50,158 nt of DNA from Rhodoferax sp. (GTDB taxonomy: Bacteria > Pseudomonadota > Gammaproteobacteria > Burkholderiales > Burkholderiaceae_C), in the NCBI GenBank assembly GCA_016790475.1, contig JAEUOX010000280.1, forward strand, positions 1 through 50,158, in the 5' to 3' direction. The translations under genes and the position numbers were made by a program. The number at the start of each line of letters is the position of its first letter. Within the stretch, counting starts at the first letter, position 1. This document shows, piece after piece, positions 41,943 through 50,158 of the stretch. Under the pieces are notes generated by a model. The model was not told the DNA's origin, did no database searches, and saw only the letters and a program-made list of their open reading frames with translations.

Positions 41943-41974
41943 TAGGAGACCCGGGCGACCGGGAGGAGCCCACG

Positions 41975-42418
41975 ATGCGCCTGACCGCACTCACCGATTA
42001 CGCGATGCGCCTGCTGATGTATGTCGGCCAGCACCCGGACCGGCTCTGCACGATCAGCGAGGTGGCGCAGCGCTACGGCATCTCCGAGGCGCATCTGATG
42101 AAGGTCACGCACCGCCTGGGGCAGGGGGGCTGGATCGAGACGGTGCGCGGCAAGGGCGGCGGCATGCGGCTGGCCAAGCTGCCGCGCGACATCGGCCTGG
42201 GCGAGGTCGCGCGGGACATGGAGTCCGATTTCGCGATTGTCGAGTGCTTCGCGACGAGCGGCAGCTGCGCGCTGGACGGCCAGTGCCGCCTGGCCGGCAT
42301 CTTCGAGGGGGCGCTGGCGGATTTCCACCGCCACCTGGACCGTTACACGCTGCTGGACCTGCTGCCGCAGGCCCGCACGGTGCAGCCGGTCAGTGGGCCA
42401 GTGCGGGCGCGGCACTGA
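41975..42418 (+). CDS. nsrR: Rrf2 family NO-sensing repressor NsrR
   Basis: A 147-residue winged-helix iron-sulfur regulator. The N-terminus MRLTALTDYAMRLLMYVGQH and the recognition helix SEAHLMKVTHRLGQGGWIETVRGKGGG are typical of NsrR. The cluster Cys are Cys91, Cys98 and Cys104 (VECFATSGSCALDGQC). The ribosome binding site is GGGAGGAG. A good NsrR box lies before the neighbouring ytfE gene and a weaker one at its own promoter, which supports the name over IscR or RirA. It converges on ytfE with a 29-base 3' overlap. Confidence 0.88.
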   Translation: MRLTALTDYAMRLLMYVGQHPDRLCTISEVAQRYGISEAHLMKVTHRLGQGGWIETVRGKGGGMRLAKLPRDIGLGEVARDMESDFAIVECFATSGSCALDGQCRLAGIFEGALADFHRHLDRYTLLDLLPQARTVQPVSGPVRARH

Positions 42419-43121
42419 CGCCGCAGCCACAGCCGGTCCCGCAGCCGGAGGCGGGTGCATTCAGCCCGTCGAACAGGATGTTGTTCTCCAGGTGGATGTG
42501 CTGCATCAGGTCCTCGCGCAGCGTGTGCAGGCCGGCCAGCAGCGCGCGCCAGGTGTTGCAGGCGCCGCGCGGCTGCGCCAGGCCGTGGGCCAGCGTCACC
42601 ATGCGGGCCAGCGCCTGGCCGTGGGCGTCGTGCTCGATGCGCATCATGTGCACCGGCGGCAGCCCGACCGGCGGCACGCCGCGCAGCATCATCGGGAACA
42701 GGATCTGCTCCTCCTTGGCCATATGGTCCTGCAGCTCGTCGAGCATCTGGGCGAGGTGATCGGCCAGGCCGTGCGGGCATTCCGGGCGGTCCGCATGGAC
42801 GGTCTCGACACGGCGTGCCAGGCGGACCAGCTCCGGCAGCTGCTGGCGATGGCGCTCGTGGTAGCGGGCGAGGATGTGGTCGATCATTTCCTGCACGGAG
42901 GCCCGGCGCCAGTCCTGCCCCGCGTCGCCGGTGTCGCCGAGCGCATCGAGCTCCGCCGCCAGTGCGGCGCCATCGATGGCCAGCGGCGCCGTGGCGTCGC
43001 GCAGCGTCTTCTTGCCGCCGCAGCAGAAGTCGAGCTGGTGCCGGTGGAACAGCGCCGTGGCGCCCGGAATGCTGCGAGCGAGGTCGCCGAGGGAGCGGTC
43101 CAGAAGCAGGGATTCGGTCAT
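42390..43121 (-). CDS. ytfE: Iron-sulfur cluster repair di-iron protein YtfE/ScdA/DnrN
   Basis: A 243-residue RIC protein that repairs clusters damaged by nitric oxide or oxidants. The N-terminal domain has RSIPGATALFHRHQLDFCCGGKKTLRDA (ScdA-N with the CC pair). The hemerythrin-like domain supplies HILARYHERHRQQLPEL, DHMAKEEQILFPMM, HMMRIEHDAHG and LMQHIHLENNILF as di-iron ligands. The last 15 residues form an unusual Cys-rich tail (GCGTGCGCG). A strong NsrR dyad precedes it at 43157-43179. The 3' end overlaps nsrR. Confidence 0.93.
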   Translation of the reverse strand: MTESLLLDRSLGDLARSIPGATALFHRHQLDFCCGGKKTLRDATAPLAIDGAALAAELDALGDTGDAGQDWRRASVQEMIDHILARYHERHRQQLPELVRLARRVETVHADRPECPHGLADHLAQMLDELQDHMAKEEQILFPMMLRGVPPVGLPPVHMMRIEHDAHGQALARMVTLAHGLAQPRGACNTWRALLAGLHTLREDLMQHIHLENNILFDGLNAPASGCGTGCGCGVSAAPALAH

Positions 43122-43207: not shown

Positions 43208-43888
43208 TCAAACCATGGCCGCGCCCTCCAGCACCTTGCCCAGCCGTGCTTCCAGGTCCGCGGTCGTGCGGTCCAGGTGCTCGCGCAACAGCCGGCAGGC
43301 CAGCCGGCTGTCGCGCGCCACCGCGGCCTGCATCAGCTGCTCGTGTTCCCCGGCCACGTCCCGACCGCCGGCGCTGCCGGGCGTGGCCAGCGTCGGGTAC
43401 CGGTAGCGCTGGGTCTCCGCGTACAGCTTGCGCGAGATGTCCAGCAGCCAGTTCGAACTGCAGGAGGCGATCAGCGCGCTGTGGAATTCCTGGTGGCGCT
43501 GCTCCAGCATGTCGCGCCGGTCCTCGCCCTTGCGCGGGCCGCGCCGGGTCTCGCGCTGCAACGCGTGGTGGGCCGCCACAATGGCGCTCTCCCAGGCGTC
43601 GTCCCCATGGCGGATCGCCAGGCGCAGCGCCTCGGTGTCGATCAGCACCCGGGTCTGCATCGCGTCGCGCATCTCGGGTACCGACAGTGGTGCCACGCTG
43701 AAGCCGCACATCGCCACCGACACCACCAGCCGTTCGGACTGCAGGCGGCTCAGTGCCTCCCGCAGCGGCGAGAAGGCCATGCCGTAGCGTTCGCGCAGCG
43801 CGGCCATGCGCAATGGCTCGCCGGGCCGCAGCGAGCCGTCCACGATGTGGCGGCGGATCTCCTGGTAGGCCTTTTCAGCCAGCGTCAT
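43208..43888 (-). CDS. GntR family regulator with FCD domain
   Basis: A 226-residue FadR/VanR-type regulator. The winged helix spans about 1-70 (KAYQEIRRHIVDGSLRPGEPLRMAALRERYGMAFSPLREALSRLQSERLV). The FCD ligand-binding domain follows, with metal-type ligands in RVLIDTEALRLAI (Asp), RHQEFHSALI (His) and GEHEQLMQAA and LREHLDRT (His). Such proteins commonly sense organic acids or aromatic intermediates. It is divergent from the gentisate-dioxygenase-type operon, whose promoter has palindromes, so it probably represses that operon. Confidence 0.9.
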   Translation of the reverse strand: MTLAEKAYQEIRRHIVDGSLRPGEPLRMAALRERYGMAFSPLREALSRLQSERLVVSVAMCGFSVAPLSVPEMRDAMQTRVLIDTEALRLAIRHGDDAWESAIVAAHHALQRETRRGPRKGEDRRDMLEQRHQEFHSALIASCSSNWLLDISRKLYAETQRYRYPTLATPGSAGGRDVAGEHEQLMQAAVARDSRLACRLLREHLDRTTADLEARLGKVLEGAAMV

Positions 43889-43950: not shown

Positions 43951-43990
43951 TAGAAAATGCTTGTAATTTTCGAAAATTCTAGGCTATGCT
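43951..43990 (+). promoter_or_regulatory. Promoter and operator of the dioxygenase/kynureninase operon
   Basis: TTGTAA (43961-43966) and TATGCT (43985-43990) are separated by 18 bases, about 50 bases before the ATG of the bicupin gene. The perfect 14-base palindrome AATTTTCGAAAATT (43965-43978) overlaps the minus 35 box. Outer arms TAGAA (43951-43955) and TTCTA (43977-43981) form a wider dyad. This is the likely operator of the divergent GntR protein. Confidence 0.6.
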
Positions 43991-44040: not shown

Positions 44041-45165
44041 ATGACCCGCCACCACGAGAACCATCGCGAAGACGTCATCGGCCGCGCCAATGTCGAGGAC
44101 ACCCCCGAGTTGCTGGCCTACTACGACGAGCTCGACAAGCTGCATGCCGGCGCGCTGTGGACGGTGGCCAACAAGATCGAACCCTGGCAGCCGGTCTCGC
44201 AGTCGGTGCCGGTCGTGTGGCGCTACCAGGATCTGCGGGCGCACGTGCTGCGCTCGGTCGCGCTGGTCACGCCCGAGAAGGCGGGGCGCCGCGTCATCTA
44301 CCTGAACAACCCGGGCCGGCGCGACGTCTCGGCCGCGGTCGGCTGGATCTACGCCGGCCTGCAGGTGATGCACCCGGGCGAGGTGGCCAGCGCGCACCGG
44401 CACTCAGCGTCGGCGATCCGTTTCATCATGGAGGGCGCGGGCGCCTACACCGTGGTCGACGGCCACAAGATGACGCTGGGCGCCAACGACTTCGTGCTGA
44501 CACCCAATGGCACCTGGCATGAGCACGGGGTCTCCGCCGAGGGTAGCACCTGCATCTGGCAGGATGGCCTGGACATCCCCTTTGTCAACGCGATGGAGGC
44601 CAACTTCTACGAGGTCCACCCGGACCTTTCGCAGGCCGTCGCCTATCCGGTCGACGACATGACGAAGACCTGGGGCAACGCCGGGCTCACGCCAAGCGGT
44701 CCGGCCTGGAAGCATGGCTACAGCCCGATGTTCAAGTACGAATGGGTGCCCACCTATGAGGCACTGCAGCGGTATGCCAGCTGCCACGACGGATCCCCCT
44801 TCGACGGTGTGCTGATGGAATACGTCAACCCGGTCACCAACGGCCCGGTGATGCGCACGCTGGGTGCGTCGATGCAGCTGCTGCGTCCGGGGGAGCACAC
44901 GCGCGCGCACCGCCATACCGGCAGCTACCTGTACCACGTGGCCAAGGGCCAGGGCCACTCCGTCATCAACGGCCGGCGCTACGACTGGCGGGAGCGGGAC
45001 ATCTTCTGCGTGCCCAGCTGGGCCTGGCACGAGCATGTGAACGGGTCAGCGTCCGACGACGCCTGCCTGTTCTGCCTGTCCGACCTGCCGGTCATGCGAG
45101 CGATGAGCCTGTACCGGGAACAGGCCTTCGGCGAAGGTGACGGCCACCAACCCGTGACGAACTGA
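44041..45165 (+). CDS. Gentisate/salicylate 1,2-dioxygenase-type bicupin ring-cleavage enzyme
   Basis: A 374-residue bicupin iron dioxygenase. The catalytic cupin has His119 and His121 (ASAHRHSASAIRFIMEG) and His160 (TWHEH) as predicted iron ligands. The second cupin retains HTRAHRHTGSYLYHVAKGQGH. Relatives cleave gentisate, salicylate or substituted salicylates between C1 and C2. The segment QSVPVVWRYQDLRAHVLRS suggests the branch of salicylate-type enzymes. The ribosome binding site is GGAGGA and the first operon promoter lies upstream. In this operon 5-hydroxyanthranilate is a candidate substrate (inference). Confidence 0.88.
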   Translation: MTRHHENHREDVIGRANVEDTPELLAYYDELDKLHAGALWTVANKIEPWQPVSQSVPVVWRYQDLRAHVLRSVALVTPEKAGRRVIYLNNPGRRDVSAAVGWIYAGLQVMHPGEVASAHRHSASAIRFIMEGAGAYTVVDGHKMTLGANDFVLTPNGTWHEHGVSAEGSTCIWQDGLDIPFVNAMEANFYEVHPDLSQAVAYPVDDMTKTWGNAGLTPSGPAWKHGYSPMFKYEWVPTYEALQRYASCHDGSPFDGVLMEYVNPVTNGPVMRTLGASMQLLRPGEHTRAHRHTGSYLYHVAKGQGHSVINGRRYDWRERDIFCVPSWAWHEHVNGSASDDACLFCLSDLPVMRAMSLYREQAFGEGDGHQPVTN

Positions 45166-45175
45166 GGAGCAAGAA

Positions 45176-46102
45176 GTGAAACTGGTGACCTACCGCGCGG
45201 ACATCGAGTCCGCAGCCCGCCTGGGTGTGTTGCAGGACGATCTGGTCGTGGACGTCGTGCGCCTGGCGCAGTCCCAGGGGCAGACCGGCCCGGAGTCGAT
45301 GCTGGCGCTGATCGACCAGGGCGCGGCCGGCCTGGCGGCGATCCGCCGGCAGCTCGCGCAGGCCGCGGGGACGCTCGCCCCCGGTGTCGCAACGTCGGTA
45401 TGCAATGTCACGCTGCTGGCGCCGATCCCGCGGCCGCGCAAGAACATCTTCGGCATCGGCCTGAACTATGTCGAGCACGTGGCCGAAAGCGCGCAGGCGC
45501 TGGACACCGCCAAGGACCTGCCCAAGCAGCCGGTGATCTTCTCGAAGCCGCCGACGACCGTCATCGGCCCGGGTGTTCCGATCGAGCACAACAGCGCGAT
45601 CACGCGCCAGCTCGACTGGGAGGTGGAGCTGGCCGTGATCATCGGCACCACGGCGCGCCGCGTCACGAAGGCGGACGCGCTGCGGCATGTCTTCGGCTAC
45701 TCGGTGATGATCGACGTGTCGGCCCGCGACAACCGGCGCGCCGGGCAGTGGATCTACTCCAAGGGCCAGGACACCTATGCCCCCTTCGGCCCCTGCATCG
45801 TGACGGCCGACGAGGTGACCGACCCGCAGACGCTGGATCTCTGGCTCAGCGTCAACGGTGTCGAGAAGCAGCGCTCCAACACGCGCCACATGCTGTTCAA
45901 GGTGGACCATCTGATCGCCGACATCTCGGCCGGCATCACGCTGGAGCCGGGGGACATCATCGCGACCGGCACGCCGGAGGGCGTGGGCGCGGGGCGCAAC
46001 CCGCAGGAGTGGTTGTGGCCGGGCGATGTGGTCGTGGCCGGCGTCCAGGGCATCGGGACGATCCGCCACGGCGTCGTGAACGCCACGCCGGCGGCGGCAT
46101 GA
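45176..46102 (+). CDS. Fumarylacetoacetate hydrolase family protein (fumarylpyruvate hydrolase-like)
   Basis: A 308-residue FAH-fold hydrolase. The metal ligands are visible as the Glu pair in DWEVELAVIIGTTARRV and Asp in the VMIDVSARDNR region; TGTPEGVGAG is the family end motif. The start is a GTG at 45176 with GAGGAG before it, ten bases after the dioxygenase stop. In gentisate pathways such enzymes split maleyl- or fumarylpyruvate to pyruvate and a C4 acid. No maleylpyruvate isomerase gene follows, so a cis-acting hydrolase or a different substrate is possible. Confidence 0.88.
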   Translation: MKLVTYRADIESAARLGVLQDDLVVDVVRLAQSQGQTGPESMLALIDQGAAGLAAIRRQLAQAAGTLAPGVATSVCNVTLLAPIPRPRKNIFGIGLNYVEHVAESAQALDTAKDLPKQPVIFSKPPTTVIGPGVPIEHNSAITRQLDWEVELAVIIGTTARRVTKADALRHVFGYSVMIDVSARDNRRAGQWIYSKGQDTYAPFGPCIVTADEVTDPQTLDLWLSVNGVEKQRSNTRHMLFKVDHLIADISAGITLEPGDIIATGTPEGVGAGRNPQEWLWPGDVVVAGVQGIGTIRHGVVNATPAAA

Positions 46103-46167
46103 GGCCGGGCGGACTGCGCTCCGCGGCTTTGGCGCACCCACTGAGCGACGCGCTGGCGGGCTGAACC

Positions 46168-46833
46168 ATGCGCTTCGACCTGGACGCGATCGCGCCGGAC
46201 ATCGTCTACAAGCTGCTGGTGGCCACGGTCGTGCCGCGGCCGATCGCCTGGGTCACGACGCAGTCTGCGGCGGGTGTCCTGAATGCAGCGCCCTACAGCT
46301 TCTTCAACGTGATGGGGCCGTCGCCACCGACGCTGGTGCTGGGCCTGATGGCCCATGCGCAAGGCGGCTTCAAGGACACCGCGCGCAATATCGTCGAGAC
46401 CGGTCAGTTCGTCGTCAACCTGGTGCCGGAGGCGCTTGCGCCGGCGATGAATGTGACGGCCGTGGATGCGCCCGGCGGCGTCAACGAGCTCGATCTGGCG
46501 GGGCTGGCGCCGGCGCCCTCGACGCACGTGCGGCCACCGCGCATCGCGGCCAGCCCGGTGTCCTTCGAGTGCGTGAACCATGCCACCGTCGTGACCGGCC
46601 CGCACCAGTCGATCGTCATCGGGCGTATCCTCGCGGTGCATGTGGCCGACGCCCATGTGCAGGACGCCGAGCGCGGCTACATCGACACCCGCAGCCTGGA
46701 TCTGGTGGCCCGCACCGCCGGATCCGGCTACGCGCGCACCCGGGACACCTTCGACCTGGTCCGACCGACCTGGAGCGACTGGCAGAAGCGCCAGTCACCC
46801 ACCGAATCCGTGAAGCAAGGAGACCGACCATGA
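46168..46833 (+). CDS. Flavin reductase family protein
   Basis: A 221-residue split-barrel flavoprotein. The N-terminal RPIAWVTTQSAAGVLNAAPYSFFNVMGPSPPTLVLG and DTARNIVETGQFVVNLV are typical of FMN-binding flavin reductases that serve two-component oxygenases. No oxygenase partner is present within the window, so it could supply reduced flavin to an unlinked hydroxylase or have its own role. A 65-base gap separates it from the FAH gene. It overlaps the TDO gene by four bases (ATGA). Confidence 0.85.
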   Translation: MRFDLDAIAPDIVYKLLVATVVPRPIAWVTTQSAAGVLNAAPYSFFNVMGPSPPTLVLGLMAHAQGGFKDTARNIVETGQFVVNLVPEALAPAMNVTAVDAPGGVNELDLAGLAPAPSTHVRPPRIAASPVSFECVNHATVVTGPHQSIVIGRILAVHVADAHVQDAERGYIDTRSLDLVARTAGSGYARTRDTFDLVRPTWSDWQKRQSPTESVKQGDRP

Positions 46834-47702
46834 GCAGCACCACCGCCGCCGAGCCGCCGCAGGCCACACCGCAGTTCGACTACGTCTACCACCTGCAGCT
46901 CGACCGCCTGCTGACCAGCATGCGGCTGATCACGACGCATCCGGAGGAGCACATCTTCCTGACCACGCACCATGTGCTGGAGCTGTGGTTCAAGCATGTC
47001 ATCTTCGACCTCAAGCGCATCGTGCCGATGCTCGATGGCGACGACCTGGCCCAAGCCAACTGGCTGATGCGCCGCCTGGCCGAGATCCTCAAGCTGGCCG
47101 AGGCCCACTGGACCGTGCTCGAGACGATGACGGCCGCCGACTTCGCCGAGTTCCGCGGCAACCTGACCGGCGCCTCGGGCATGCAGTCGCGGCAGTTCCG
47201 CGAGGTCGAGGTGATGATCGGCCTGGGCCAGACGGCCGGCAAGGAATACCGGGATCGGGTCGAGCACCTGTGGCCCGGCCTGCTGGCCGAGTACCCGCGC
47301 ACGCTGCGCGACGCCTTCTTCGACGCCTTCAAGCGCCGGGGCAAGACGCTGCGCGAGGTCTACCACCGCCGCTGGATTGACAACGACCTGTTCATGCTGG
47401 CCGAGGCGGCCTTCGAGATCGACCGGCGCTTCCAGTCCTGGCGGCACAACCATATCCTGATGGTGCGCCGGCAGATCGGCATCCGGGCCCGGGGGACCGG
47501 CGGCACCTTCTTCCGCGACTACCTGGCCACGACGACCGGCTACTACTTCTTCCCGGAGCTGTTCGAGTTCCGCAACGACCTGACGGAGGCGGCCGGCGGC
47601 GAGGTGCTGCGCGAGGACGACCTGCCCGGCGCACCCGACAACCATGGCGAGGGCGGTGCCACCGATGGCGGTGCGGCACGGTGCCCCTTTGGAGGATTCT
47701 GA
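46830..47702 (+). CDS. kynA: Tryptophan 2,3-dioxygenase family protein (divergent)
   Basis: A 290-residue haem dioxygenase homologue. Residues matching the catalytic site of Xanthomonas TDO are kept: Phe43 and His47 (HIFLTTHHVLELWF), Arg in ASGMQSRQFREVE, the haem-ligand His in WRHNHILMVRR and the GTGGT loop. Other segments differ from canonical KynA (for example YHLQLDRLLTSM and SGMQS for SGFQS), so this is a separate subfamily. It should open the pyrrole ring of tryptophan or a ring-substituted analogue to a formylkynurenine. The coupled flavin reductase and kynureninase genes flank it. Confidence 0.85.
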   Translation: MSSTTAAEPPQATPQFDYVYHLQLDRLLTSMRLITTHPEEHIFLTTHHVLELWFKHVIFDLKRIVPMLDGDDLAQANWLMRRLAEILKLAEAHWTVLETMTAADFAEFRGNLTGASGMQSRQFREVEVMIGLGQTAGKEYRDRVEHLWPGLLAEYPRTLRDAFFDAFKRRGKTLREVYHRRWIDNDLFMLAEAAFEIDRRFQSWRHNHILMVRRQIGIRARGTGGTFFRDYLATTTGYYFFPELFEFRNDLTEAAGGEVLREDDLPGAPDNHGEGGATDGGAARCPFGGF

Positions 47703-47704
47703 AG

Positions 47705-48949
47705 ATGGATCAACGCGAGCTGCTGGCCCGTGCGGCACACCTGGATGCCGGTGACGCCCTGGCCCCGCTGCGGGAGGCTTTCCACATGCCCGAGGGCATG
47801 GTCTACCTGGATGGCAATTCCCTGGGCCTGATGCCCAAGGCCGTGCCGGCCCGGCTGCAGGCGGTCGCCCACCAGGAATGGTCCGAGGGGCTGATCCGCT
47901 CCTGGTCGAACGCCGGCTGGTTCGACCTGCCGATGGCGGTCGGCGACCGGATCGCGCCGGTGATCGGCGCCGGCCCGGGCGAGGTGGCCGTCGGCGACTC
48001 CACGTCGGTGAACCTCTTCAAGTGCCTGGCGGCTGCGCTGCATCTGCGGCCCGGGCGCACGGTCATCCTGGCCGAGGCCAACAACTTCCCGACCGACATC
48101 TACATGGCCCAGGGGCTGGCCGCGCTGGTGCCCGGCGTCCGCATCGAGTTCCTGGAAGAGGGGCAGACGGTGGCGCAGCGCGTGCATGACCAGGTGGCCG
48201 TCGTGCTGCTGAGCCATGTCGACTACCGCACCGCGGTCGTGCGCGACATGGAGCGCATCAATCGCGAGGCCCGTGCCGGCGGTGCGCTGGTACTGTGGGA
48301 TCTGTCCCATACTGCGGGCGCGGTGCATTGCGACCTGCGCGGCAGTGGCAGCGACCTGGCCGTGGGCTGCACCTACAAATACCTCAACGGGGGCCCGGGC
48401 GCGCCGGCCTACTGCTGGATCCGGGCCGAACTGATGGAGCAGGTGCGCCAGCCGCTGGCGGGCTGGATGGGCCATGCGGCGCCGTTCGGTTTCCCGCGCG
48501 ACTATGCGCCGGCGCCCGGTGCGCGACGCATGGTCTGCGGCACACCCCAGGTGCTGAGCCTCAGCGCGCTGGACGAGGCGCTGAAGATCTGGGGCGGGGT
48601 GGACCTGGCGGCGCTGTTCGCGAAGTCCCGCGTGATGACGGATTTCTTCATCGAGGCGGTCGAGGCGCTGTGTGCCGGGCACGGCCTGCAGCTGCGGGTG
48701 CCGCGCGATGCCGCCGCACGCGGCAGCCATGTGTCCTTCGACCTGCCGCAGGGCTTTGAGGTGATGCAGGCGCTGGCCGCGCGCGGCGTCATCGGGGATT
48801 TCCGAGCGCCAGCGACGATGCGCTTCGGCTTTGCGCCGATGTACCTGCGCTTTGCCGACGTGGCGCGCGCCGCGGTGCTGCTGCGCGACATCGTCGACAC
48901 CCGCGAATGGGACCAGCCGCGCTTTCGGGTGCGCGGCAAGGTCACCTGA
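47705..48949 (+). CDS. kynU: Kynureninase
   Basis: A 414-residue PLP hydrolase that splits kynurenine or hydroxykynurenine to an anthranilate and alanine. Family signatures are MVYLDGNSLGLMPKAV, the phosphate-binding VGDSTSVNLFK, ALVLWDLSHTAGAV (Asp for the pyridine nitrogen), the PLP lysine in AVGCTYKYLNGGPGAP and WMGHAAPFGF. Length is normal. The ribosome binding site GGAGG lies inside the end of the TDO gene; the start is three bases after that stop. No kynurenine formamidase (kynB) gene is present in the operon. Confidence 0.95.
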   Translation: MDQRELLARAAHLDAGDALAPLREAFHMPEGMVYLDGNSLGLMPKAVPARLQAVAHQEWSEGLIRSWSNAGWFDLPMAVGDRIAPVIGAGPGEVAVGDSTSVNLFKCLAAALHLRPGRTVILAEANNFPTDIYMAQGLAALVPGVRIEFLEEGQTVAQRVHDQVAVVLLSHVDYRTAVVRDMERINREARAGGALVLWDLSHTAGAVHCDLRGSGSDLAVGCTYKYLNGGPGAPAYCWIRAELMEQVRQPLAGWMGHAAPFGFPRDYAPAPGARRMVCGTPQVLSLSALDEALKIWGGVDLAALFAKSRVMTDFFIEAVEALCAGHGLQLRVPRDAAARGSHVSFDLPQGFEVMQALAARGVIGDFRAPATMRFGFAPMYLRFADVARAAVLLRDIVDTREWDQPRFRVRGKVT

Positions 48950-48956
48950 CGGCGCC

Positions 48957-50158
48957 ATGCAGTCGCGTCCCAACCTTGTCTTTGTCCTCGCGGACGATCT
49001 CGGCTATGCCGATCTGGGCTGCTACGGTGCCCGCGCGTCGGTATCCCCCCATCTCGACCGGCTCGCGGCCGGGGGGATCACCTTCGACTGGGCCTACTCC
49101 AACTCTCCGGTCTGCTCGCCGACGCGCTTTGCGCTGATGAGCGGGCGCTACCAGTACCGGTTGCCGGGGGGCTCGGAGGAGCCGCTGACCTTCGCCCGGA
49201 TGAAGCGTGCGCCCGGCCTGCTGGGCTTTCCGCCGGAGCACCCGAGCCTGCCCTCGCTGCTGCGGGGTGCCGGCTACCGGACGGCGCTGGTCGGCAAATG
49301 GCACCTGGGCACGCCGCCGGAGTTCGATCCGCTGCGCTCCGGCTACGAGGAGCACTTCGGTTGTTATGGCGGTGGCCTGGACTACCACAGCTACCTGACG
49401 ATGGGCGGCGACCGGGACCTGTGGGACAACGGCCAGCCGGCCCCGGGCTCGGGCTACCTGACCGACCGGCTGACCGACCGCGCCGTCGATTTCGTGCAGC
49501 GGTGCGCCCGCAGCGACGAGCCCTTCCTGCTGAGCCTGCACTACACCGCGCCGCACTGGCCCTGGCAGACCCGGGAGGACGAAGCCGAATCGCGGCGCAT
49601 CGGCAGTGCGGTGCAGCATGCCGACGGCGGTTCGGTCGACACCTACCGGCGCATGGTGCTGCAGATGGACGAAGGCATCGGCCGCCTGGTCGACGCAATG
49701 CGTGCCAACGGCCAGCTGGACAACACGCTGATCGTGTTCACCAGCGACAACGGCGGCGAGCGCTTCTCGGACAGCTGGCCGCTGATCGGCGGCAAGATGG
49801 ACCTGACCGAAGGCGGCATCCGGGTGCCCTGCATCGCGCACTGGCCGGCGCGCGTGCCGGCGGGCCGGGTCAGCGCCCAGCTGTCGATGACGATGGACTG
49901 GGTGGCCACGATGCTGGACGCGGCCGGCGTCGCGCCCCACCCGGACTGGCCACTGGACGGCATCTCGCTGCTGCCGATGCTGCAGGATCCCGCGCAGGTC
50001 GTGCCGCGCGAGCTGTTCTGGCGCATGAAGTACCGCGAACAGTGGGCGATGCGCGCCGACCGCTGGAAGTACCTGGTGGTCGACGGCCACGAGTACCTGT
50101 TCGACCTGCACGCCGACCAGCGCGAGCGGGCCAATGTCGCGCGCCGCTACCCGGAGCG
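48957..50158 (+). CDS. Sulfatase (arylsulfatase-like), cut by the window end
   Basis: At least 400 residues of a type I sulfatase; the stop codon is beyond 50158. The metal-binding start NLVFVLADDLGYADLGCYG (Asp13, Asp14) and the activation motif CSPTR at Cys53, which is oxidised to formylglycine, are intact, as are GKWHLG and the late SDNGG. There is no signal peptide at the start, so it is predicted to be cytoplasmic. It begins seven bases after kynU, so it belongs to the same operon. It may remove sulfate from an aryl or indolyl ester before catabolism (inference). Confidence 0.9.
   Translation, partial: MQSRPNLVFVLADDLGYADLGCYGARASVSPHLDRLAAGGITFDWAYSNSPVCSPTRFALMSGRYQYRLPGGSEEPLTFARMKRAPGLLGFPPEHPSLPSLLRGAGYRTALVGKWHLGTPPEFDPLRSGYEEHFGCYGGGLDYHSYLTMGGDRDLWDNGQPAPGSGYLTDRLTDRAVDFVQRCARSDEPFLLSLHYTAPHWPWQTREDEAESRRIGSAVQHADGGSVDTYRRMVLQMDEGIGRLVDAMRANGQLDNTLIVFTSDNGGERFSDSWPLIGGKMDLTEGGIRVPCIAHWPARVPAGRVSAQLSMTMDWVATMLDAAGVAPHPDWPLDGISLLPMLQDPAQVVPRELFWRMKYREQWAMRADRWKYLVVDGHEYLFDLHADQRERANVARRYPE

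Follow-up and report, generated by a model that had tools for sequence, protein, structure and literature searches.

A report of 1968 (Cain, cited in PMC4539516) placed 5-hydroxyanthranilate among the intermediates through which anthranilate is broken down, and an excerpt of the review citing that work describes the compound in Nocardia opaca (PMC4539516). The 2-aminobenzoyl-CoA pathway of Azoarcus evansii, as outlined in the same excerpt, likewise acts on anthranilate and hydroxylates C5, but it is bound to coenzyme A (CoA) and does not cleave the ring of the free acid directly (PMC4539516). For the breakdown of indole and anthranilate by the gentisate pathway, a 2018 review states that the functional gene had not yet been revealed (PMC6221969). 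Here we analyse a 50,158-nucleotide stretch of Rhodoferax sp. DNA (assembly GCA_016790475.1, contig JAEUOX010000280.1; hereafter the window), which carries six genes combining a bicupin ring-cleaving dioxygenase with relatives of two kynurenine-pathway enzymes, tryptophan 2,3-dioxygenase (TDO) and kynureninase (KynU).

The closest solved relative of the window bicupin is 3BU7 of Ruegeria (Silicibacter) pomeroyi (E 1.2e-164; 60.7% identical), a member of the same bicupin family with histidines in both cupins and with the same metal and main substrate-binding residues. Unlike the window, the 10 kb surroundings of the 3BU7 gene hold neither TDO nor KynU. The parts of the pathway proposed below are known, and their combination here would be a new variant. 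Our literature search returned, among the matches listed and in the excerpts given, neither a gene for a 5-hydroxyanthranilate ring-cleaving dioxygenase nor an operon of this kind; the initial annotation knew of no standard pathway with this gene set.

A probable six-gene operon with a predicted 5-hydroxyanthranilate dioxygenase

The window is one whole contig of the source genome, and its end cuts the last of six plus-strand genes. The DNA around the operon finds its best plasmid matches in records of Comamonas and Ideonella, from which the genome appears to belong to Burkholderiales. Family calls, made with Pfam and NCBIfam profiles against their curated cut-offs, identified these as a two-metal-type bicupin ring-cleaving dioxygenase (44041..45165; Cupin_2), predicted to be a 5-hydroxyanthranilate 1,2-dioxygenase; an FAH-family hydrolase (45176..46102; PF01557, 233.6 bits), predicted to be an acylpyruvate hydrolase that frees pyruvate; a flavin reductase-like protein (46168..46833; PF01613 match); a divergent TDO relative (46830..47702; hereafter dTDO); a kynureninase of a separate clade (47705..48949; hereafter dKynU); and a formylglycine-type sulfatase (48957..50158; PF00884, 211.6 bits). 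The spacers between them, taken from the coordinates, are 10, 65, -4, 2 and 7 bases, and such short spacing suggests that the genes from bicupin to sulfatase likely form a single operon. All six gene identities in the initial annotation, together with a divergent GntR regulator, are present and correct at family level. Its description of the junctions as short gaps or ATGA overlaps holds for the short gaps; the lone ATGA overlap joins the flavin reductase-like and dTDO genes.

In our estimate there is about an even chance that the operon serves the catabolism of a 5-hydroxylated tryptophan, possibly derived from its sulfate ester, by way of ring cleavage of 5-hydroxyanthranilate. In this route, whose substrates, reactions and step order we infer from the observed gene content, families, linkage and residues, the sulfatase would expose the 5-hydroxyl group, dTDO would open the indole ring of a 5-hydroxytryptophan-like substrate, a formamidase encoded elsewhere would take off the formyl group, and dKynU would free alanine and 5-hydroxyanthranilate. 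The bicupin would break the C1-C2 bond of 2-amino-5-hydroxybenzoate, as in gentisate, and on chemical grounds the amino carbon would become a carboxamide. The acylpyruvate-type FAH hydrolase would split the ring-cleavage product into pyruvate and maleamate, a C-N hydrolase (amidase) would release ammonia from maleamate, and the maleate so formed would be turned into fumarate by a maleate isomerase; candidate genes for these last two steps lie on another contig of the source genome (C387).

The course from TDO through kynureninase and bicupin to FAH hydrolase was already put forward in the initial annotation and is still the leading reading. It is favoured by the repeated linkage of dTDO and KynU with the bicupin module, by ordinary TDO and KynU pairs kept separately in five of seven genomes, by residues that contact a 5-hydroxyl group and by amidase and isomerase neighbours, and it is tempered by the equal fit of those residues to gentisate. 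To it we add the wider family of two-metal-type bicupins, the probable maleamate, maleate and fumarate ending, and the recurrence of sulfatases that are not orthologous to one another.

Rather less than even is the probability that we give to a broader proposal: a dedicated 5-hydroxytryptophan pathway with neofunctionalised TDO and kynureninase and a two-metal bicupin, in which nitrogen is kept as an amide as far as maleamate, and a bicupin family, 3BU7 included, that consists of 5-hydroxyanthranilate dioxygenases and supplies the missing genes of the 'gentisate branch'. The module of bicupin, FAH hydrolase, amidase and isomerase offers concrete candidate genes for the hydroxyanthranilate route of the 1960s. 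If the proposal is true, dTDO would represent a subfamily of tryptophan dioxygenases whose substrate has changed, and the operon would provide for the environmental breakdown of 5-hydroxyindoles.

The divergent TDO clade

Like the ordinary TDO of the kynurenine pathway, dTDO exceeds the gathering cut-off of the superfamily profile PF03301 (151 bits vs 34.9). Its score against the equivalog model TIGR03036 (147.4) is far under the cut-off of 390.7, and we therefore count it as divergent. No second dTDO was found among the 298 other genomes of the source family (best other match E 8.7e-26, 34% identity), in the class set (369 genomes, source included; best other TDO match 35% identical), in the phylum set (398 genomes, source included; 37%) or in 397 genomes of one further family (f213), and a plasmid search with the window TDO gave 116 records, every one below 60% identity. 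At 28 of the 37 loci from the family, class and phylum searches the TDO has a kynureninase next to it, the arrangement of the ordinary pathway.

Six dTDO loci at 58-77% identity, all from Rhodobacterales/Rhodobacteraceae genera, came from a peptide-pattern scan of genome contigs, which uses exact patterns and can miss distant copies. A search of 394 genomes, a family presumed from SecF identity to be Rhodobacteraceae, gave two genomes with dTDO at E 1e-50, namely the L047 genome again and G1471, which holds two copies. Outside the window, dTDO thus totals eight loci in seven Rhodobacteraceae genomes, at 58-77% identity, and the clade is rarely found.

Trees and residue counts excluded segments that covered less than 60% of the query or contained a stop. 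The nine dTDO proteins form a clade with 100/100 support against eleven ordinary rows (kept from 17 loci, only some ordinary loci having entered), on long branches, which the tree program flagged here and in the bicupin tree. Compared with the ordinary TDOs met here, to which they are ~28-37% identical, the dTDO proteins lack a segment of ~23 residues and carry His in place of Tyr27 (Xanthomonas numbering) in 9/9 cases, with Tyr in 11/11 ordinary rows. Past the GTGG motif, window residue 227 is Phe or Tyr in all nine, and residue 228 is Phe in eight of the nine vs Gly in every ordinary row. By alignment, dTDO keeps its catalytic residues: H208, R109, T223 and H47 correspond to H240, R117, T254 and H55 of Xanthomonas campestris TDO, which we take to be the heme-ligand His, the substrate-binding Arg and Thr, and the distal His, respectively.

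The conserved changes (His27, aromatic 227, Phe228) suggest altered specificity but leave the substrate unnamed. Together with the recurrence of sulfatases at dTDO loci, they would also fit a pair of enzymes acting on some other 5-substituted tryptophan or kynurenine (methoxy, halogenated or sulfonated) and still giving the bicupin its substrate. We consider this improbable; the bicupin keeps its 5-hydroxyl contacts and appears best suited to a free 5-hydroxyl group.

Linkage of dTDO with the other operon genes

The initial annotation had called for a search for conserved synteny of the six genes. In the flanks examined of the eight dTDO loci, at least one further gene of the operon set lies nearby in six. 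FAH is found in four (L044, L045, L048 and L055), a bicupin in three besides the window (L044, L048 and L055), KynU in three (L048, L049 and L054), a sulfatase in the same three, and a flavin reductase in one (L045). dTDO, KynU and sulfatase are therefore linked in the window, L048, L049 and L054. The two copies in G1471 divide the set, one standing with KynU and sulfatases and the other with a C-N hydrolase, bicupin, FAH and isomerase.

A bicupin at E <=1e-160 is present in each of the seven dTDO-bearing Rhodobacteraceae genomes, compared with a background of 2/61 genomes of the family under a looser limit of E 1e-100 (Fisher 3.7e-8, kinship of genomes uncorrected). The dTDO-linked bicupins occupy three separate places in the tree: that of the window stands with the Aminobacter protein, those of L044 and L055 stand together, and that of L048 stands with the R. 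pomeroyi member. The gene grouping exceeds chance. An accident of horizontal transfer, in which the gene order reflects no single pathway, would agree with the rare and patchy occurrence of dTDO (0/298 other family genomes) and with L046 and L047, where dTDO has no partner in the flanks examined; given that the linkage is repeated in several lineages and that the bicupin co-occurs in 7/7 vs 2/61 genomes, we regard it as extremely improbable.

An actinomycete plasmid, from Embleya, carries TDO- and KynU-family segments upstream of the same bicupin module (L070:4274-12869). These BLAST segments score just under the equivalog cut-offs (366.9 vs 390.7 for TDO and 243.4 vs 246.4 for KynU), and in the trees the TDO falls among the ordinary rows and the KynU also lies on the ordinary side.

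A two-metal-type bicupin family and its neighbours

The window bicupin scores below the cut-offs of both the gentisate 1,2-dioxygenase model TIGR02272 (304.2 vs 442.1) and the model NF049978 for the 5-aminosalicylate 1,2-dioxygenase MabB (285.9 vs 650). Its residues place it in a wider family of the two-metal type: the second-cupin metal-site histidines His290, His330 and His332 occur in 22/22 bicupins and His292 in 21/22, and they are not kept together in the four more distant gentisate-dioxygenase-like proteins compared. Excerpts on the R. pomeroyi structure describe a second metal site (PMC10306065, PMC4019311). SDO Arg83, Gln108, Arg127, His162 and Asp174 are conserved in all 22 bicupins; at residue 104, 13 of them, the window protein among these, have Tyr and the other nine Phe. 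In the excerpted text, Asp174 and residue 104 contact the 5-hydroxyl group of gentisate, and most gentisate enzymes have Tyr at the latter position (PMC10306065). The kept contacts speak for a 5-hydroxyl group and are neutral on the C2 amino group. One excerpt reports that 5-nitrosalicylate dioxygenase, which is a related monocupin, acts on neither gentisate nor 5-hydroxyanthranilate.

We counted genes around 19 bicupin loci, including the window and the disrupted L071, and using 10 kb flanks for plasmid loci. Of the 17 plasmid records whose bicupin reaches >=58%, 15 were analysed (H38 and H39 were left out); L065, L066, L067 and L070, which have no gene table, were read by BLAST only. FAH is present at all 19 loci, a C-N hydrolase at 15 and an Asp/Glu-racemase-type protein at 11, followed by a flavin reductase (6/19), both indolepyruvate-type oxidoreductase subunits (5/19) and a CoA 5-hydroxylase (4/19). 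This racemase-type protein is related to the maleate cis-trans isomerase 4fq7 (E 5.7e-102). The C-N hydrolase is nitrilase-like, below cut-off, making the candidate amidase a nitrilase-superfamily protein. The window operon itself has neither gene, and contig C387 of the source genome holds a second set of bicupin (partial), FAH, C-N hydrolase and isomerase, cut by the contig end (L089, 13567-16670). Neighbours of the C-N hydrolase and isomerase types match the needs of an amide product, and the probable end of the lower pathway is maleamate, maleate and fumarate. The same end, with a related maleate isomerase (4fq7), is described in an excerpt on a maleamate, maleate and fumarate route (PMC3812094), which differs in its upstream substrate and in that the candidate amidase here belongs to the nitrilase superfamily.

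The R. pomeroyi megaplasmid encodes a protein that matches 3BU7 exactly across its 374 residues (L061:9977-11101), with genes for a C-N hydrolase, FAH, a maleate isomerase-like protein and indolepyruvate-type oxidoreductase within 10 kb. These neighbours suggest that the native substrate of 3BU7 differs from gentisate. The contrary case, that the bicupin acts on gentisate and that the 5-hydroxyanthranilate from dKynU is first deaminated, as proposed for N. opaca, draws on three points: the depositors name 3BU7 a gentisate 1,2-dioxygenase, the gene of which lies in the R. pomeroyi cluster; a review excerpt describes the conversion of 5-hydroxyanthranilate to gentisate in N. opaca (PMC4539516); and the bicupin active-site residues agree with those of gentisate enzymes, suiting gentisate as well as 5-hydroxyanthranilate. 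We judge it unlikely. The recurrence of a C-N hydrolase speaks against it, and no recurring deaminase gene was noticed in the clusters, although no search aimed at deaminases was made. Separate gentisate-dioxygenase-like proteins, 32-39% identical and forming their own clade, are moreover present in five of the eight dTDO genomes (source included).

For the upstream steps, bicupin clusters carry a CoA 5-hydroxylase with a thioesterase, an oxidoreductase set, or dTDO and dKynU. On the Caballeronia plasmid locus L060:3254-15640, the bicupin module is accompanied by a thioesterase and by 2-oxoacid oxidoreductase subunits, with similar parts in L061-L064, and a cyclase-family protein joins this set in L060, L062 and L064. 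Such a cluster could provide a pathway that starts from isatin and passes through isatinate and anthraniloyl-CoA. In Aminobacter (L057:13730-16112), the bicupin, FAH, C-N hydrolase and flavin reductase genes are followed by two more, one for an annotated peptidase M29, which matches neither Pfam nor NCBIfam, and one for an acyl-CoA-dehydrogenase-like flavoprotein; these two may represent another feeder route. A Leisingera plasmid (L071:5242-8043) has a second bicupin, FAH and isomerase copy, BLAST-matched in pieces, with an IS21 element downstream; this disrupted copy was excluded from the bicupin and FAH trees.

Kynureninase, the ordinary pathway and the origin of the 5-hydroxyl group

The window dKynU resembles ordinary kynureninase in passing the NCBIfam cut-off (TIGR01814, 284.8 vs 246.4), and the pyridoxal phosphate lysine K225 is found in 16/16 aligned kynureninase rows. 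It forms a clade with the KynU proteins of L048, L049 and L054 (support 90/97). A plasmid search with the window KynU gave 172 records, every one below 60% identity. Among the seven dTDO-bearing Rhodobacteraceae genomes, three (G1471, G1791 and G1792) hold a KynU 56-66% identical to that of the window. G1791 also has a second dKynU-like gene (66%; L110:8625-9866, G1791:C27), with no TDO or bicupin match in the surrounding 19 kb.

An ordinary TDO and KynU lie side by side elsewhere in five of the seven genomes (G1471, G1787, G1788, G1790 and G1791); G1792 has an ordinary KynU at a contig edge, and no ordinary pair was found in G1789. In G1787 the ordinary pair adjoins genes for CoA-ligase, acyl-CoA dehydrogenase, enoyl-CoA hydratase, SDR and salicylyl-CoA 5-hydroxylase/oxidoreductase, a set that resembles the 2-aminobenzoyl-CoA pathway. 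The retention of an ordinary pair in five genomes suggests that dTDO has a different substrate.

Homologues of the A. evansii flavoenzyme also occur in the dTDO genomes. The cut-off of the CoA 5-hydroxylase/oxidoreductase model NF006101 (salicylyl-CoA/2-aminobenzoyl-CoA type) is exceeded in six of the eight, with weaker matches in the other two: one of full length in G1790 (1006 of 1078 bits) and, in G1789, a fragment where the contig breaks off. Matches under cut-off were also seen in 13/14 control genomes and are uninformative for that reason. The presence or absence of this enzyme was tried as a divider of the two main readings and failed, as it is over cut-off in 6/8 genomes. No NF006101-type hydroxylase homologue was found in the eight dTDO loci or the window operon, other hydroxylase families not having been searched, and the 5-hydroxyl group is thus most simply already present in the substrate, that is, in 5-hydroxytryptophan.

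The initial annotation had offered plain tryptophan with a later 5-hydroxylation as its other option, and the NF006101 homologues indicate that anthranilate could indeed be hydroxylated at C5 at a later stage. In that case, dTDO and dKynU would be extra plain-tryptophan isozymes, and anthranilate would pass through its CoA ester, C5 hydroxylation and a thioesterase to the bicupin. Bicupin loci with a hydroxylase and a thioesterase match but no dTDO (L059, L060, L066 and L067) fit this course, as do two features of the kynureninases. W64, G281 and T282, presumably specificity positions by reference to the Pseudomonas and human enzymes, are the same in dKynU and in 12 ordinary rows, so that kynurenine-type residues are kept and the three positions compared give no specificity signal in dKynU. 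The source genome (89.8% complete), which has an ordinary TDO on contig C103, shows no second strong KynU match besides the operon copy, and dKynU may therefore also serve plain tryptophan. We nevertheless hold the isozyme explanation to be unlikely, though not negligible: with ordinary TDO and KynU already present in 5/7 genomes, once beside CoA-pathway genes, a long-diverged second pair would be redundant, and the hydroxylase homologue is missing from the dTDO loci and the operon alike.

Besides the points already given for the alternatives, several observations weigh against the 5-hydroxytryptophan route. Only ordinary-type KynU, 47-50% identical to that of the window, is present in G1787, G1788 and G1790, and a search of G1789 for KynU found none. 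TDO of any kind occurs in 5/19 bicupin loci, with none nearby in 14/19. Among five further bicupin loci, FAH was not seen near the bicupin in L096 and L097. The fold model of dTDO is weak (mean pLDDT, the predicted local distance difference test, 69; TM ~0.58), and its best fold matches, TDO chains, say little past family level. The sulfatase of the window is 25-27% identical to those of the other loci and not orthologous to them, its nearest solved relatives being carrageenan and GalNAc sulfatases of the carbohydrate type. Finally, no formamidase gene was found between 43208 and the contig end.

Sulfatase, flavin reductase-like protein and candidate formamidase

The window sulfatase carries the C-x-P-x-R motif as CSPTR at residue 53. 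Sulfatases recur in L048, L049 and L054, with a related one in R. pomeroyi L061; the L048 protein is 57% identical to that of L061 and 63% to that of L054. A sulfate ester as the natural form of the substrate is our guess. In Pararhodobacter (L049:12139-13140), a formylglycine-generating enzyme gene lies directly 3' of KynU, with two sulfatases near. A phosphatase-family gene of Cupriavidus gave one loose sulfatase-motif match (S-type) and no BLAST similarity to sulfatases. An apparent opposition of sulfatase and hydroxylase among bicupin clusters was dropped as the sample was too small.

The nearest solved structures to the flavin reductase-like protein, which matches no NCBIfam family, are 3bpk and 4z85 (2-nitrobenzoate nitroreductase), and it is kin to NTA monooxygenase component B. 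Possibly it keeps an easily oxidised aminophenol reduced. In L048 and L054 an alpha/beta-hydrolase gene stands between dTDO and dKynU; the top solved matches of its product are esterases, and fly kynurenine formamidase ranks fifth (E 6.7e-15).

Regulator, candidate operator and neighbouring genes

A GntR/FCD-family regulator (43208..43888, minus strand; PF00392 and PF07729 over cut-off) is divergent from the operon. Relatives at 50.7% (L057), 48.7% (L068) and 55.7% (L093) are likewise divergent next to a bicupin, and L093 repeats the gene order of regulator, bicupin, FAH and flavin reductase. Between regulator and bicupin lies the palindrome ATTTTCGAAAAT (43966..43977), which has one match in the window vs none in 100 shuffles and is a candidate operator of the regulator. 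Two relatives, Aminobacter L057 and G1792 (L093), have its core TTTTCGAAAA in the corresponding gap separating regulator from bicupin, and Tistrella L068 has a degenerate form. Across the 115 loci scanned, the core was found at two further sites, one upstream of a different gene (L057 13631) and one that is not between regulator and bicupin (L063 4983). Adjacent to this region, at 41972-43121 of the window, an Rrf2-family regulator has a DUF542/hemerythrin (RIC/YtfE-type) protein as its neighbour, and the two probably act as a pair in the repair of iron-sulfur or nitric oxide damage.

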